A DNA stretch of 64,000 nt from Candidatus Ruthia magnifica str. Cm (Calyptogena magnifica) (GTDB lineage Bacteria > Pseudomonadota > Gammaproteobacteria > PS1 > Pseudothioglobaceae): positions 558,001 to 622,000 of the forward strand of contig NC_008610.1 in NCBI RefSeq assembly GCF_000015105.1. Direction: 5' to 3'. The translations under genes and the position numbers were made by a program. Under the pieces are notes generated by a model. That model ran no database searches. It saw only the letters and a list, made by a program, of their open reading frames with translations, and was not told the origin of the DNA. Positions 29,326-63,235 of the stretch are shown piece after piece; position 1 is the first letter of the stretch; each line of letters starts with the position of its first letter.

Positions 29326-30069
29326 ATGTCAAAATCAATTATTATCACTAGTTTTCACGCTGTTCAAGCGCAGTTAAAATCAAATCCTACATGTTTTATT
29401 AAGGTCTTTATATTAAATAAACGGTGTGATAAACGCTTAAACACTCTCACCTCTGAGTTTAACAATTTTGGTATTAGTGTTCAGCGGTGTACCAAAATTC
29501 AATTAGATAAATTAAGTAATCATCAAACCCACCAAGGTGTTGCAGCTGAAATATTATTACCTACCCTACCCGACCAAGGCGAGTTAATCTCTTATGTGTC
29601 TAAATTGGATAATGCTGGTTTTATTTTAATACTTGATTCTATTCAAGACCCTAGAAATTTAGGCGCTTGCTTGCGTAGTGCTAACGCAGCTGGGGTTCAT
29701 TGTGTAGTCATTAACAAAAATGGATCAGCGCCTATTAATTCACTGGTACATAAGACTTCTGCAGGTGCGCTTAATCAGCTAAAAATTTTCCAGGTAACCA
29801 ATCTATCTCGCACCATTAAGGCGCTACAACAAAAAAACATTTGGGTAATCGGTTTAGATGGCTCTGTTAATATCTCCATTTATCAAATAGATTTAACTAT
29901 ACCAAATGCTATTATTATGGGCGCTGAAGGCTCTGGACTTAGAAGGTTAACCAAACAATCTTGTGATCAATTAGCTAAAATTCCCATGCAAGGCAAGGTG
30001 GAAAGTTTAAACGTATCTGTTGCCACAGGAGTGACACTTTTTGAGGTAAATAGACAGCGTCTTCTATAG
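29326..30069 (+). CDS. rlmB: 23S rRNA 2'-O-methyltransferase RlmB (SpoU/TrmH family)
   Basis: SPOUT-class methyltransferase expected to modify G2251 of 23S rRNA. The 247 residues carry an N-terminal substrate-binding domain (SFHAVQAQLKSN, then HQTHQGVAAE) and the knotted catalytic domain with LDSIQDPRNLGACLRSANAA, IMGAEGSGLRRL and ESLNVSVATGVTLFE. It begins immediately after surA. E. coli rlmB sits next to rnr; here rnr is about 8 kb away. TrmH-type tRNA methylation is less likely given the domain layout. Confidence 0.9.
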   Translation: MSKSIIITSFHAVQAQLKSNPTCFIKVFILNKRCDKRLNTLTSEFNNFGISVQRCTKIQLDKLSNHQTHQGVAAEILLPTLPDQGELISYVSKLDNAGFILILDSIQDPRNLGACLRSANAAGVHCVVINKNGSAPINSLVHKTSAGALNQLKIFQVTNLSRTIKALQQKNIWVIGLDGSVNISIYQIDLTIPNAIIMGAEGSGLRRLTKQSCDQLAKIPMQGKVESLNVSVATGVTLFEVNRQRLL

Positions 30070-30185
30070 GCTCAAATTATGTGAATTTTACGCACATATT
30101 TGGTTAGCAATGAAAACAACTATTATCAGTTAAAATTGAAAATAAAAAACGAAGCTGTTTCATCACAAGCATCCAGAATGATTAG

Positions 30186-30210
30186 TGTTTTTAAATGGCA
30201 CTTAAAAACA
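30186..30210 (+). terminator. Hairpin downstream of rlmB
   Basis: TGTTTTTAA (30186-30194) and TTAAAAACA (30202-30210) form a perfect nine-base stem with loop ATGGCAC, 117 bases after rlmB. It may end the lptD-surA-rlmB transcript, though no clear T tract follows on the plus strand. Confidence 0.35.
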
Positions 30211-30348
30211 AAGGTTGTGTATCAATGCAATAGTTTTGGTTTACAGTACGTATAACGTAGTTATAATCAACAAAAGTTTGTGGTATTTGATACGTGGTTG
30301 AATTCTACTCTAGTGCAAATTTTTTTCAAACTTAACATGGTCTTTCCT

Positions 30349-30376
30349 ATAGAAAAAATATGTAAATTTTTTCTAT
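30349..30376 (+). promoter_or_regulatory. Palindrome A upstream of aceA
   Basis: ATAGAAAAAAT (30349-30359), six-base loop, ATTTTTTCTAT (30366-30376): a perfect 11-base stem. It could be a dimeric operator or, in RNA, a hairpin. Its A-run could also pair with the T-run of palindrome B, so the two could form alternative structures. Confidence 0.5.
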
Positions 30377-30379
30377 TTA

Positions 30380-30406
30380 TTGTTTTTTCACTACATGAAA
30401 AAACAA
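30380..30406 (+). promoter_or_regulatory. Palindrome B upstream of aceA
   Basis: TTGTTTTTTCA (30380-30390), loop CTACA, TGAAAAAACAA (30396-30406): a second perfect 11-base stem three bases after palindrome A. It ends 85 bases before the aceA start. Confidence 0.5.
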
Positions 30407-30491
30407 CCTTAAATTCAAATCACCTATGTATGATTGATCTTGAAATAAACGTATAACAAACTATTTTAAAATAACACTAGGGGGATTGTTT

Positions 30492-31796
30492 ATGAATAGA
30501 CAAGAACAAACAAATGTATTGACAAAAGACTGGGCTGAGAATCCACGTTGGAAAAATGTGAAACGCGCTTATAATGCGAAAGACGTTGTACGTCTACGTG
30601 GCTCCATACAGCCTGAATATACTTACGCACGATTAGGTTCTGAAAAATTATGGAAACTGATTAACGATTCTTCTAAAAAGGGTTATGTTAATTGTATGGG
30701 CGCAATCACAGCAGGTCAAGCGATGCAGCAAGCAAAAGCAGGTATTGAGGCAATTTATTTATCAGGTTGGCAAGTTGCTGCTGACGGTAACACATCAGAA
30801 ACCATGTATCCTGATCAATCCTTGTATGCGTATGACTCAGTACCAACAATGGTGCGTCGCATTAACAATACCTTTAAACGTGCTGATGAAATTCAGTGGG
30901 CAAAAGGTATCAATCAAAACGATCAAGAGTATGTTGATTATTTTCTACCTATTATTGCTGATGCTGAGGCTGGGTTTGGTGGTGTATTAAATGCTTATGA
31001 GTTGATGAAAAATATGATTGTCAATGGTGCAGCAGCCGTTCATTTTGAAGATCAGTTAGCTTCGGTTAAAAAATGTGGACACATGGGTGGCAAGGTTTTA
31101 GTTCCCACTCAAGAAGCGATTCAAAAACTCACTTCAGCACGCTTAGCAGCAGATGTAATGGGTATTCCTACGATTGTATTAGCACGAACTGATGCTGAGG
31201 CAGCAACCCTATTAACGTCTGATGTAGATCCTAGAGATGAAAGATTTGTGACTGGTAAACGTACTCCAGAAGGATTTTATATTGTTAAAAATGGTCTTGA
31301 GCAAGCCATTTCACGCGGTATTTCATACGCACCATATGCTGATTTAGTATGGTGTGAAACTGGAAAACCAGATTTAGGTTTTGCTCGTGAATTTGCTCAA
31401 GCAGTATTAGTTAACAATCCAGAACAACTATTAGCATATAATTGTTCGCCCTCATTCAATTGGAAAAAAAATCTAAACGATAGTCAAATAGCCTCCTTTC
31501 AAGAGGATATTGCCGCCATGGGATATAAGTATCAATTCATCACTCTAGCTGGTATTCATAATATGTGGTATAACATGTTTGAACTTGCTCATGAGTATGC
31601 TCAAGGTGAAGGCATGAAACATTATGTTGAAAAAGTTCAGGAGCCTGAATTTGCAGCAGCAGAAAAGGGCTACACATTTGCTTCTCATCAACAAGAAGTG
31701 GGGGCTGGTTATTTTGATGATGTTACTACTGTTATTCAAGGCGATACATCTTCGGTAACCGCCTTAACAGGTTCAACAGAGGCGGCGCAATTTTAA
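30492..31796 (+). CDS. aceA: Isocitrate lyase
   Basis: Splits isocitrate to glyoxylate and succinate in the glyoxylate bypass. The 434 residues include the catalytic signature [13 protein letters not shown], the metal-binding [12 protein letters not shown] and the C-terminal [11 protein letters not shown]. The ATG at 30492 follows the strong ribosome-binding site AGGGGGA; a TTG six bases earlier is a poorer start. Length matches E. coli AceA (434). Malate synthase is not in the window. The long structured leader suggests dedicated regulation. Confidence 0.96.
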
Positions 31797-32161
31797 AGTG
31801 TTAATCTTGTTTCAAATTTGCTTGAAGTAGCATCTTTTTAGAAAAATTACAAAAAAGTAGTTCTTAAAAGATAATTAACTAAAATGTCAGGTGAATCTGC
31901 TATAAGATTGATGTTATTAGTGCGTAATAGGATTTATATTTTAACAGATTTAATTAAAAATAGCAATGGTTATGAGCTTTGGTGAGAGTATTTCGGACGT
32001 CATGATAATAACATTAATTAGCATGCACGACCTAGAAAAATCACTCATAATTTCTCTCATGAGAAGTTACTTTACCTTATCAAATCCATAGACTATATTG
32101 TTCGCGAAACATCTAGCATTAATGAATAATTGTGTTTTATGGCATAAAATTTTTCATGTGA
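31797..32161. other. Spacer downstream of aceA
   Basis: About 365 bases with no convincing reading frame on either strand and only a five-base stem (TTCTC/GAGAA, 32052-32065). There is no strong terminator after aceA. It lies between aceA and a convergent broken gene and may contain further debris that I cannot identify. Confidence 0.45.
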
Positions 32162-33328
32162 TTAATTTAATTGAATACGATGACCACACGGTATATTTTC
32201 CTTGCCTTTAACAAGCCACATCGCTGGATAGCTTTGTTCAAATTCTGGAAACTTGCCTTTGGCATCAGTAAAATAAATCAGTACACTGGGTATGGTATCT
32301 TGTGTATTAACATAATCAAACACAGGATTAAAATTAGTGCCTTTACCCGCCGCCTAATGATGCTGGAAATGTCAGCGTCCCAAGCTTCAAAATGCCATAT
32401 CAGTTCTTTACTAACTTTTTCATCACAAGCAATTAATGTAATTGAGGCGAGTATATTGCTTTTAATGGCATTAATTTCTGTTATAAATTCATCAATTTCA
32501 TCTTGATGAGATTGAGCCAGAAGTGTCAATGGCAACAGTAATATCAATTTGGTTAGATCTAAGTGATGACAATATTGCATTGCCACACTAAGACGTGATG
32601 GTCTAGCATAGGAGAAATCAATTAATTTAACAAATCCACCGTCTAATTTTCCCACTTGTTGTGCACTTGAAGCAAGATTTTTTTGCCATTTACTGCTTAA
32701 TTGTTGAATTTCATCTAGTGTTAAAGGACTTGGCTTATCTACCAAGCCAGAAGAGTTTATATTGTTTTGGTGATTATCTTTGTTATTGTCTTTTAGACTA
32801 TCCTCACGCAATCCACCATCAGACTCATTTGCGTCATCTTTTGGATTGTCATCATATAAATACTGATCCATAGGTTTAGTATCAATACTATCATCAATCA
32901 TTGGGTATATTACTTCTGCAATCATGCCTTGATATTTATGAAAAATAGGTAAATCAAGTGGCGGATGAAACCCTTCTTTTACCAAAAGTGGATTAATGGC
33001 AAAATCACAAGCCAAATCCCATTTGCGTTAATGCACAATTGCATGGCTTCATGAATAAGAACAAACTTAATTTGCTGGTCAATAAAACTTGGATTATAAT
33101 AAAAGCTTTTAGCGTCAGTTGCACTCGTCTTACACCAAGAATCAGCGGTTTTAAGTGGTAGCCGAAGCACTAAATTACCTAAAAAGGTTTGTCAAGAATA
33201 AGTTGTGTACGTGCTTTAATTAGCTTTTCCTCAACTGCTTGCAAATCAATCTTATCAATGTTATTTTCAATCACAACATCTTCGACAATAACCCTTTCCT
33301 GTGGTTCAAGTTCAATAGCTTTAATCAA
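32162..33328 (-). pseudogene. Broken metallopeptidase/VWA-like protein (COG3864 type), partner of a MoxR ATPase
   Basis: Remnant of a gene of the putative metallopeptidase plus VWA-like family that pairs with MoxR-type ATPases. Nearly the full length can be read by joining frames: KLIKARTQLILDKPFLGNLV, TDAKSFYYNPSFIDQ, an altered zinc motif IHEAMQLC where HExxH is expected, ACDFAINPLLVKEGF, a low-complexity acidic linker, the VWA metal site AIDTSGSIS (only in another frame, 32513-32527 region), and a C-terminal segment from IPSVLIYFTDAKGKFPEF to a TAA at 32162. Frame changes occur near 33170, 33020, 32560-32500 and 32355. It probably began at a TTG at 33328, seven bases before the end of the ATPase gene. 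Function is lost. Confidence 0.85.
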
Positions 33329-34335
33329 ACATGATATCAGCAATTTTATTTGCCCAATCAGTAAATTCAGGGATGGTAAAAATATCGCTACCAATACCAC
33401 GTTGCATATCTGATACCAGCATAACACCCAATTCTTTTTGTGGAAAGTTTTTAGCAAAATTAAGAATATGGCCCCATACTTTTTCAGCATAATTAGTGTC
33501 TTAAACGCTGATTGCTCTACCTGCTATTGCTGCACAAATTGCATATTGCAAATCAAGCTCTTTAGGAATTGAGACACTTTCGCCATTAATAATAGCTTCA
33601 AGATCAGGCAAATTAGACATGTGTTCAACAAACGTAGTAATTTCAAACCCCTACCACTTCGCCAACACAAGCACTAGCAGCTTGTCTAAATAAAGATAAA
33701 TCAGTGCCAAATTTATTCAACGCTCTATGTACAAATTCCCAAGTTCTTGATGATGGAAAAGCAACTGGGTTGTGTTTAGCGTCAAACTCAAATAAATGTT
33801 CAGGACGATAACGTAAAAAACCAATAATACGTTCATCAATGTTGTTTTTATATGCCCACGTCACCCAATCATTCAAGTCAACATCAAGCTCAAAATGCGA
33901 AAATCGATTTGCCAAAGGTGCAGGCATGGCCTCGATCACCTTGGCGATTTCCTGCAGCAAATATCACCCCCCAGCCCTCAGACACAATATAATCGCCTAA
34001 ACGGCGGTCAAGAATAAGCTGATATGGTTGGTGGTGCTGAGGTAATTTCATCAAGAAATAAAATACCTTGCTCGCCATGACGCTTTGAATCGGGTAATAA
34101 TGAAGGCACTGACCAGTCAACTAAATCTCCATTTTTAAATGGTATACCACGAAGGTCACTAGGCTCCATTTGTGATAAGCGAATATCAATAATATTAACC
34201 CTATTCTTGGTTGCCACTTATAATTTTGGACTTTCCAATTCCTGGTGCACCCCATAACATAACGGGTGTATGATAACCTTGCATCACTGATACTAACTCT
34301 TCATTAAGAATTTTACTGACTTGTTCTGGACGCAT
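33321..34335 (-). pseudogene. Broken MoxR-family AAA+ ATPase
   Basis: Remnant of an AAA+ ATPase of the MoxR/CobS-like group. It starts with ATG at 34335 and keeps Walker A (WGAPGIGKS), then needs a frame change near 34205 to reach RLSQMEPSDLRGIPFKNGDL and Walker B (GILFLDEITSAPPT), another near 34020 before LILDRRLGDYIVSEGWGVIF, another near 33935 before PAPLANRFSHFELDVDLNDW, one near 33640 before TTFVEHMSNLPDLEAIINGE, and a stop near 33501 before VWGHILNFAKNFPQKELGV. It ends IADIMFD with TAA at 33321. Such ATPases act with VWA proteins in cofactor or metal insertion; the adjacent metallopeptidase/VWA gene is broken too. Confidence 0.88.
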
Positions 34336-56516: not shown

Positions 56517-56546
56517 AAAAAGCTCCATAAAATGGAGCTTTTTTTT
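56517..56546 (+). terminator. Intrinsic terminator of groES-groEL
   Basis: AGCTCCAT (56521-56528), loop AAA, ATGGAGCT (56532-56539), followed by a run of eight T on the plus strand; with the flanking A and T runs the stem extends further. It lies 23 bases after groEL and is the best terminator in the window. Confidence 0.95.
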
Positions 56547-59709: not shown

Positions 59710-60948
59710 ATGGGTAAAAGAAGAGTTGTTATTACAGGTATGGGTATGGTTTGCCCAGTCGGTTTAAGTGTAGATGAATCTTGGGATAATATTCTTAAGG
59801 GTCATTCTGGCATTGCTTCACTTACTAATATCGATACCAAAGGTCAATCGGTTACGTTTGGTGGCTCGGTCAAAGGTTTTGAAATTACCGACTACTTAAA
59901 GCCTAAAGATGCCAAAAAAATGGACACTTTTGTCCATTACGGTATGGCCGCTGGCATTCAAGCTATTGAAGACAGTGGTATTGAAGTTACCGAACAAAAT
60001 GCCCATCGTATCGGTGTTACTATCGGTGCTGGCATTGGTGGTCTTGGTACAATTGAAAAAACTGCAGATTTATTCAGAGAAAAAGGAGCAAAGCGCATTT
60101 CACCTTTTTTTGTCACCTCTTCAATTATCAACATGATTTCAGGCAATCTTTCTATAAAATATGGCTTAAAAGGCCCTAATTTTGCTATTGTGAGTGCCTG
60201 TAGTACAGGCACTCACAATATTGGCGGCGCTTCTCGTTTGATTGAATATGATGATGCTGATGTAATGATTACTGGTGGTGCTGAAATGTCAACCACCAAC
60301 TGTGGTTTAGGTGGTTTTGCTGCAGCACATGCATTGTCTACTCGTAATGATGACCCAATAAACGCTTCTCGCCCTTGGGACAAAGACAGAGATGGTTTTG
60401 TGCTTGGTGATGGTGCAGGTGTTGTGGTGTTAGAAGAGTTCGAATACGCTAAAGCACGTGGTGCAAAAATTTATGCACAAGTTTCAGGATATGGCATGAG
60501 TAGTGATGCTTATCACATAACACTACCTTCAAAAGGCGGAGAAGGTGCGGCCAGATGCATGCAAAATTCACTAAAAAACTCAGGTATTAACACCGATCAA
60601 ATTGATTATATTAACGCACATGGTACTTCCACGCCATCAGGCGACCAAGCAGAAACAGATGCTACTAAATTGGCCCTTGATAAGCACGCTTATAACATTG
60701 TCATGAGTTCAACCAAATCTATGACTGGGCATTTATTAGGTGCTGCTGGTGGCATTGAAGCCATCTTTACTGCACTCGCCATTAAAAATCAAATTGCACC
60801 ACCAACCATTAACATCATCAATCAAGACCCAAATTGTGATTTAGATTATTGTGCTAATGAAGCACGAGAAATGACAATCAATCATGCCATTTCTAACTCA
60901 TTTGGATTTGGTGGCACTAATGGCTCAATTGTATTCAGCAAAATTTAA
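59710..60948 (+). CDS. fabF: 3-oxoacyl-[ACP] synthase II FabF
   Basis: Condensing enzyme of fatty-acid elongation. The 412 residues contain the catalytic cysteine in VSACSTGTHNIGGA and the two histidines in NAHGTSTPSGDQAETD and STKSMTGHLLGAAGGIEA, with SFGFGGTNGS at the C-terminus. Length matches FabF (E. coli 413). Confidence 0.97.
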   Translation: MGKRRVVITGMGMVCPVGLSVDESWDNILKGHSGIASLTNIDTKGQSVTFGGSVKGFEITDYLKPKDAKKMDTFVHYGMAAGIQAIEDSGIEVTEQNAHRIGVTIGAGIGGLGTIEKTADLFREKGAKRISPFFVTSSIINMISGNLSIKYGLKGPNFAIVSACSTGTHNIGGASRLIEYDDADVMITGGAEMSTTNCGLGGFAAAHALSTRNDDPINASRPWDKDRDGFVLGDGAGVVVLEEFEYAKARGAKIYAQVSGYGMSSDAYHITLPSKGGEGAARCMQNSLKNSGINTDQIDYINAHGTSTPSGDQAETDATKLALDKHAYNIVMSSTKSMTGHLLGAAGGIEAIFTALAIKNQIAPPTINIINQDPNCDLDYCANEAREMTINHAISNSFGFGGTNGSIVFSKI

Positions 60949-63147: not shown

Positions 63148-63235
63148 TGGTGGAAGGAGTGGGATTCGAACCCACGGTACACAAAGGTACACACACTTTC
63201 CAAGCGTGCTCATTCGGCCACTCTGAAATCCTTCC
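63148..63235 (-). tRNA. tRNA-Ser (anticodon GGA)
   Basis: Reads UCC and UCU. On the minus strand the gene runs from 63235 to 63148 with CCA encoded. The acceptor stem pairs GGAAGGA with TCCTTCC; the anticodon stem CACGC/GTGTG holds the loop TTGGAAA with GGA in the middle; there is a long variable arm as in all serine tRNAs, and the T-arm GTGGGTTCGAATCCCAC is standard. The base before CCA reads A, whereas serine tRNAs usually carry G at that position. Confidence 0.95.

Follow-up and report, generated by a model that had tools for sequence, protein, structure and literature searches.

Inverted repeats upstream of aceA in Candidatus Ruthia magnifica as probable remains of a dead IclR-type regulator and its operator

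The four inverted repeats that precede the isocitrate lyase gene aceA in Candidatus Ruthia magnifica str. Cm are very probably what is left of a dead IclR-type regulator gene, which lay on the opposite strand, and of its operator, rather than a working RNA switch, and the aceA locus is a case of ordinary reductive evolution. The repeats lie in a window of 64,000 nucleotides (positions 558,001 to 622,000 of NC_008610.1; window coordinates are used throughout) from a genome that consists of a single contig of 1,160,782 bp. In the scheme that we favour, the ancestor shared with the relatives outside the genus and the sister genome G007, which still have it, an IclR-family regulator gene divergent to aceA-aceK-glcB; dimers of this regulator would have sat on two palindromes separated by about two turns of the helix and set the output of both promoters. 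In the R. magnifica genome only scraps of the regulator gene persist on the minus strand and a single scrap is left of aceK and glcB, and a deletion between the tandem operators would have left a single hybrid palindrome (referred to below as S4). The aceA gene would most likely still be transcribed from its old promoter (–10 at 30429–30434) without dedicated control, and would have been kept for making succinate and glyoxylate, not for the glyoxylate bypass.

The spacer in question measures 422 bp (30070–30491; 27% GC) and separates aceA from an upstream gene (29326–30069, plus strand) that we take, on its sequence, to be rlmB; the same rlmB-like neighbour occupies this position in seven sister genomes (G002, G003, G006, G007, G009, G010 and G011). 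The four inverted repeats described in an earlier note on this DNA were all recovered, as S1 (30186–30210; perfect 9-bp stem, 7-nt loop), S2 (30247–30259; the 5-3-5 palindrome TACGTATAACGTA), S3 (30349–30376; 11-bp stem, 6-nt loop) and S4 (30380–30406; 11-bp stem, 5-nt loop), with three bases between S3 and S4. Among 2000 dinucleotide shuffles of the spacer, at least one stem of at least 11 bp occurred in 0.8%, at least two such stems in 0.05% and three stems of at least 9 bp in 0.05%, figures that are uncorrected for the spacer itself having been picked from the 64-kb window. The 11-bp stems of S3 and S4 thus exceed chance. The whole window holds four perfect stems of at least 11 bp (loop 3–8), two of them being S3 and S4. 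The other two lie at genes that, on their sequence, we presume to be groEL and fabF: a terminator-like 12-bp stem with a T run behind it, 3′ of the groEL-like gene (56517–56543), and a perfect palindrome longer than any other in the window (60186–60220; 16-bp stem, 3-nt loop), which lies within the fabF-like gene over the codons ACSTGTHN and is probably a coding coincidence.

Protein match, DNA match and alignments place the fossil of a gene for a divergently oriented IclR-family regulator, with stops and frameshifts, on the minus strand of the spacer (30070–30376). With the regulator of locus L031 as query against 58 genomes, a protein match covering residues 16–83 was obtained at 30179–30367 (minus strand; E 1.8e-13; six stops), and DNA of the C-terminal end and last codons was still detectable around 30066–30119. 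The reading frame of the window copy is broken by these six stops and by large deletions, the window spacer being 375 bp shorter than that of L031 (422 vs 797 bp). The L031 locus comes from Candidatus Ruthturnera sp. CSMAG_640 (the sister treated here as L031/G007), and the minus strand of its spacer carries an intact ORF of 228 aa, which stops a single base away from the end of rlmB. On its predicted domains this ORF is an IclR-family regulator, with both IclR_C (PF01614; 2.5e-17, 63.4 bits, cut-off 24) and HTH_IclR (PF09339; 1.3e-9, 38.1 bits, cut-off 22) over cut-off, and it matches solved IclR-type regulators such as 1mkm. Its scores against the NCBIfam models all fall below cut-off, both for the nearest ones (PcaR/PcaU/PobR, 92.4 with a cut-off of 284.75; BhcR, 79.7 with a cut-off of 350) and for the IclR model.

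Across the R. magnifica genome, PF01614 had no match with an E of 10 or less, and PF09339 had a single one of 10.9 bits, under its cut-off of 22; both families were detected in control genomes. Because no other IclR-family gene in the genome passes the Pfam cut-offs, the S4 operator is orphaned, which argues against the suggestion that an operator is in use here. No open PubMed Central paper was found that pairs 'SUP05' or 'Ruthia magnifica' with 'IclR'.

Two alignments served to compare the stems across relatives: one of seven sequences from the genus, and one, by codons, of the 23 regulator genes that can be aligned as a single piece, of which 21 come from outside the genus. S1, S2 and S3 coincide with the former codons LFLSAIYKN, YVVR and IEK...IFS, respectively, the last near the N-terminus of the regulator, and none of the three is perfect in any of the 21 relatives outside the genus. 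In these 21 loci S1 retains at most five of nine Watson-Crick pairs (an approximate count, given a 2-base indel in the window), S2 at most two of five and S3 between 4 and 10 of 11. Within the genus, S3 takes looser forms with a bigger loop as judged by eye, owing to the high A+T content of the IEK...IFS codons, and its loop was tightened by deletion in the window. Two results lean towards functional stems: G011 too has a perfect S1, which differs by one two-sided change, and G010 a perfect S2. Both stems lie over former codons, and neither result was counted as support. S4 is perfect in the window only among the seven genus sequences. Conserved, covarying stems of the kind expected from an attenuator or riboswitch were not found, for S1–S3 in the 21 outside-genus sequences and for S1, S2 and S4 in the seven of the genus, and the check proposed with the earlier note, for stem conservation and compensatory changes in relatives, showed S1–S3 not to be conserved outside the genus. 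Judging from these alignments, S1–S3 are most likely palindromes among former regulator codons.

The ancestral arrangement is preserved outside the genus, where the gene order is a divergent iclR followed on the other side by aceA, aceK and glcB. Among 33 loci chosen from 80, a divergent iclR stands beside aceA in 15 (of which L031 and L032 belong to the genus); aceK is next in all 15 (decayed in L032), and glcB follows aceK in 12, the other three having no glcB match up to the end of the locus. In the 18 further loci no such iclR occurs within the stretch covered. According to the part of PMC8222616 that deals with them, group 1 operators of the IclR family are palindromes with the consensus KTYCRYW3-4RYGRAM, and tandem sites are typically spaced 18–22 nt apart. 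Tandem palindromes 20–21 bp apart were found in 23 of 27 control regions (19/21 outside the genus and 4/6 inside it), the regions without such a pair being those of the window, G002, L006 and L010. The main operator-type site was TTTCATATTATGAAA, or at most three changes away from it, in the 25 loci with a listed site; a 15-of-15 fit to the group 1 consensus was found in 19 of the 27 loci and a best fit of 13–14 of 15 in six. The two loci for which no group 1 site is listed are G002 and the window, whose site lies outside the scanned stretch.

In the window, an operator-like core TTTCACTACATGAAA (30386–30400, part of S4) fits the group 1 consensus at 14 of 15 positions and differs from the clade consensus TTTCATATTATGAAA at four, as counted by eye. 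One-mismatch matches to the group 1 consensus are no commoner in the window than chance predicts (2 found, 6.1 expected), and the identification of S4 as an operator is therefore based on position and alignment rather than on the motif alone. Where a group 1 tandem would have two sites 18–22 nt apart, the window has a single palindrome left. S4 is most likely a hybrid left by a deletion that merged the two tandem operators of the iclR/aceA region; its central five bases, CTACA, have no counterpart among the listed sites of the relatives, which counts against this reading. The idea of paired operators thus holds for the ancestor, as relatives carry tandem IclR-type palindromes at this place, but not for S3 and S4 as the pair, since S3 once belonged to the coding sequence and S4 is the probable leftover of a merged pair.

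A putative –10 element, TATGAT (30429–30434, plus strand), lies 30 bp from the right half of S4 by hand count and would place the transcriptional start at about 30441, and a Shine-Dalgarno-like AGGGGGA (30479–30485, plus strand) precedes the ATG in the sequence. In 22 of the 23 tandem loci (the exception, L030, has none at either distance) a –10-like hexamer follows the second operator site, at 28–32 bp in 16 and at 19–22 bp in six, distances that were read in AT-rich DNA by a permissive hexamer pattern, uncontrolled for chance, with several loci offering more than one candidate. The two distance classes would be on the same helix face, one turn apart. As the putative promoter is located 3′ of all four stems, S1–S4 would lie upstream of the aceA start, and the aceA leader, if this promoter holds, is most likely about 50 nt long and devoid of any stem; such a leader folds no better than shuffles. 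Folded as RNA, the segment 30345–30410 forms the S3 and S4 hairpins separately (–16.3 kcal/mol, z –6.3), on which the MFE and centroid structures agree, so that the mutually exclusive folds once proposed for the tandem units are not borne out and pairing between units is not favoured. The longer segment 30274–30410 has a z of –2.9, and the S1 and S2 part (30186–30300) a z of –0.2, no better than shuffles.

That these hairpins might nevertheless function as RNA hinges on a candidate promoter-like site, TTTACA-16-TATAAT (30240–30267, plus strand), which scores 11 of 12 and is the only such site on the plus strand of the window (the minus strand has one more). An RNA starting from about 30274 would include the stably folding S3 and S4, and an attenuator or leader switch for aceA, as the earlier note had it, would need this or another start site, the putative promoter being 3′ of all stems. 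We consider such a switch very unlikely: codons account for S3 and the operator region for S4, no terminator was found in a scan of 30000–30560, S1 and S2 fold like shuffles, the S3 and S4 hairpins form without competition, and promoter-like sites scoring at least 9 of 12 number 6 in 30000–30560, vs 3.3 (sd 2.1) in shuffles. Least probable of all is a small RNA made from the spacer. Stable hairpins within 422 bp would be in keeping with one, but the sole match over gathering score in an Rfam search of the window is a tRNA elsewhere (63151–63235), the fossil gene explains most of the spacer, and sisters such as G002 and G006 lack large parts of it. The same promoter-like site could also have turned the dead regulator into a new control region, so that aceA would start constitutively and have a leader of about 218 nt, in which two stable hairpins, one derived from defunct codons and one from the defunct operator, may stabilise the message. 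Among the seven genus sequences, both hexamers occur in this form in the window only, and they would have been formed by C to T changes in former regulator codons (the direction being judged from sisters). We hold this to be unlikely, because C to T changes easily yield such sites in dead AT-rich sequence.

S4 could alternatively be a working operator that was taken over by another transcription factor after the death of the IclR-type regulator. It keeps the TTTCA-N5-TGAAA half-sites, its 11-bp stem is perfect, its distance of 30 bp to the –10 element is that of many relatives, and it is the only exact match in the window to TTTTTTCA-N5-TGAAAAAA (two matches when one mismatch is allowed, against 0.03 expected). 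S4 also exceeds the sites of the relatives in the length of its perfect palindrome, and this length, together with the S3–S4 fold at the z given above, might be read as a sign of selection that weighs against a relic. A takeover nonetheless seems improbable, given that no IclR-family gene over the Pfam cut-offs is left, that G002 still has an open aceA after most of both its operator sites were cut away, and that the centre of S4 is unlike that of the relatives' sites. Our preferred explanation thus remains that of a dead regulator and its merged operator.

The loss extends to the partner genes. The aceA gene itself (30492–31796, plus strand) is an intact open frame with a dN/dS of 0.059–0.064 against three sisters, compared with 0.107–0.132 against four for rlmB, and is under strong purifying selection. 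Downstream, malate synthase G (glcB) is reduced to a scrap of two pieces (31878–32073, plus strand; 38 aa at 55% identity and 32 aa at 63%), matched with E 3.6e-9 in a small database and, for one piece, E 9.1e-4 genome-wide. The malate synthase domain PF01274 has no match in the R. magnifica genome, and aceK none in the window or the genome, the genome search for aceK being without a positive control of its own. With isocitrate lyase intact and no whole malate synthase, the glyoxylate bypass is therefore incomplete in this genome. The suggestion of a regulatory device for the bypass can thus be upheld insofar as a control element of the glyoxylate locus existed here, but the complete bypass that it would have served is no longer encoded. 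A glyoxylate bypass has been hypothesised for R. magnifica in a portion of PMC2642828, and isocitrate lyase is taken as a sign of succinate production in a portion of PMC3035367; neither main text contains the term 'malate synthase', and no open PubMed Central paper was found to pair this term with 'Vesicomyosocius'. The incomplete bypass fits the succinate-production view expressed in that part of PMC3035367. The stretch downstream of aceA (31797–34000) also has a minus-strand VWA-like (DUF2201) gene, seen as two overlapping matches (32925–32377 and 32587–32165); this gene is open in G007.

Within the genus set, 12 genomes grouped together and including that of the window, the regulator is intact in two (G007 and G003), decayed in six (window, G002, G006, G009, G010 and G011) and without a match in four. 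An open aceA is present in four (window, G002, G007 and G010) and a broken one in two (G009 and G011), the other six having no match at E 1e-3. The malate synthase domain is complete in G007, fragmented in G010 and without a match in the other ten, with glcB scraps found by tblastn in the window, G002, G006, G009 and G011. The genus thereby offers a graded series of a dedicated control circuit dying genome by genome: regulator and partners are intact in G007; the regulator is decayed and the operators are kept in G010; operators are merged or cut in the window and G002; the enzyme is broken too in G009 and G011; and in G003 the regulator is intact and the enzyme gone. In G003 (L112, 2326–3440), the stretch beyond the control region reads like transposase genes on unaided reading. 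In an rlmB tree of eight genomes, those with an intact regulator group with G002 and G010 (86/94) and the window groups with G006 and G009 (66/90), which hints that the regulator may have been lost independently more than once; the aceA tree has no resolution at the corresponding point. These observations affect the published idea of a glyoxylate bypass, as isocitrate lyase is the sole intact gene of the operon and is under strong purifying selection, and a supply of succinate or glyoxylate would be a testable reason for the retention of aceA.

In E. coli, an IclR-family protein controls isocitrate lyase, and aceK is part of the aceBAK operon. The loci of the relatives share with this system an IclR-family regulator, isocitrate lyase and aceK in the operon, but their malate synthase is of the G type and the intact sister regulator scores 45.6 against the NCBIfam IclR cut-off of 380. 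The E. coli IclR site TGGAAATNATTTCCA (Table 1 of PMC8222616, within the part of that paper considered here) has half-sites that, on our reading of the two consensus types, are oriented opposite to those described above. The relatives' loci more closely resemble the group 1 tandem systems as presented in that part of PMC8222616, in that the regulator gene lies beside its likely target and AT-rich 15-bp palindromes, 20–21 bp apart, fit KTYCRYW3RYGRAM. The window differs from such systems, its regulator being dead, its sites probably merged into one and the centre altered. Its state is more akin to the gene decay of vesicomyid clam symbionts, for which a portion of PMC2642828 describes reductive evolution and a degenerate nitrate reductase pseudogene still in place in R. 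magnifica, since here too a ruin was left in place; the main text of that paper does not contain 'IclR' and to that extent makes no mention of the regulator ruin.

Finally, operator-type palindromes also occur away from aceA. Exact TTTCAYAWTRTGAAA was found at 13 places in 8 of 15 genomes and at none in the genome of the window, while the reversed control pattern was found at one place in the same 15 genomes, in G000. Six of the 13 places are at the iclR/aceA locus. The other seven, all in relatives outside the genus (G013:C85:3362, G013:C104:5589, G020:C12:57305, G020:C35:65118, G020:C106:5008, G022:C1:872017 and G030:C1:1098355), may be further targets of the regulator.
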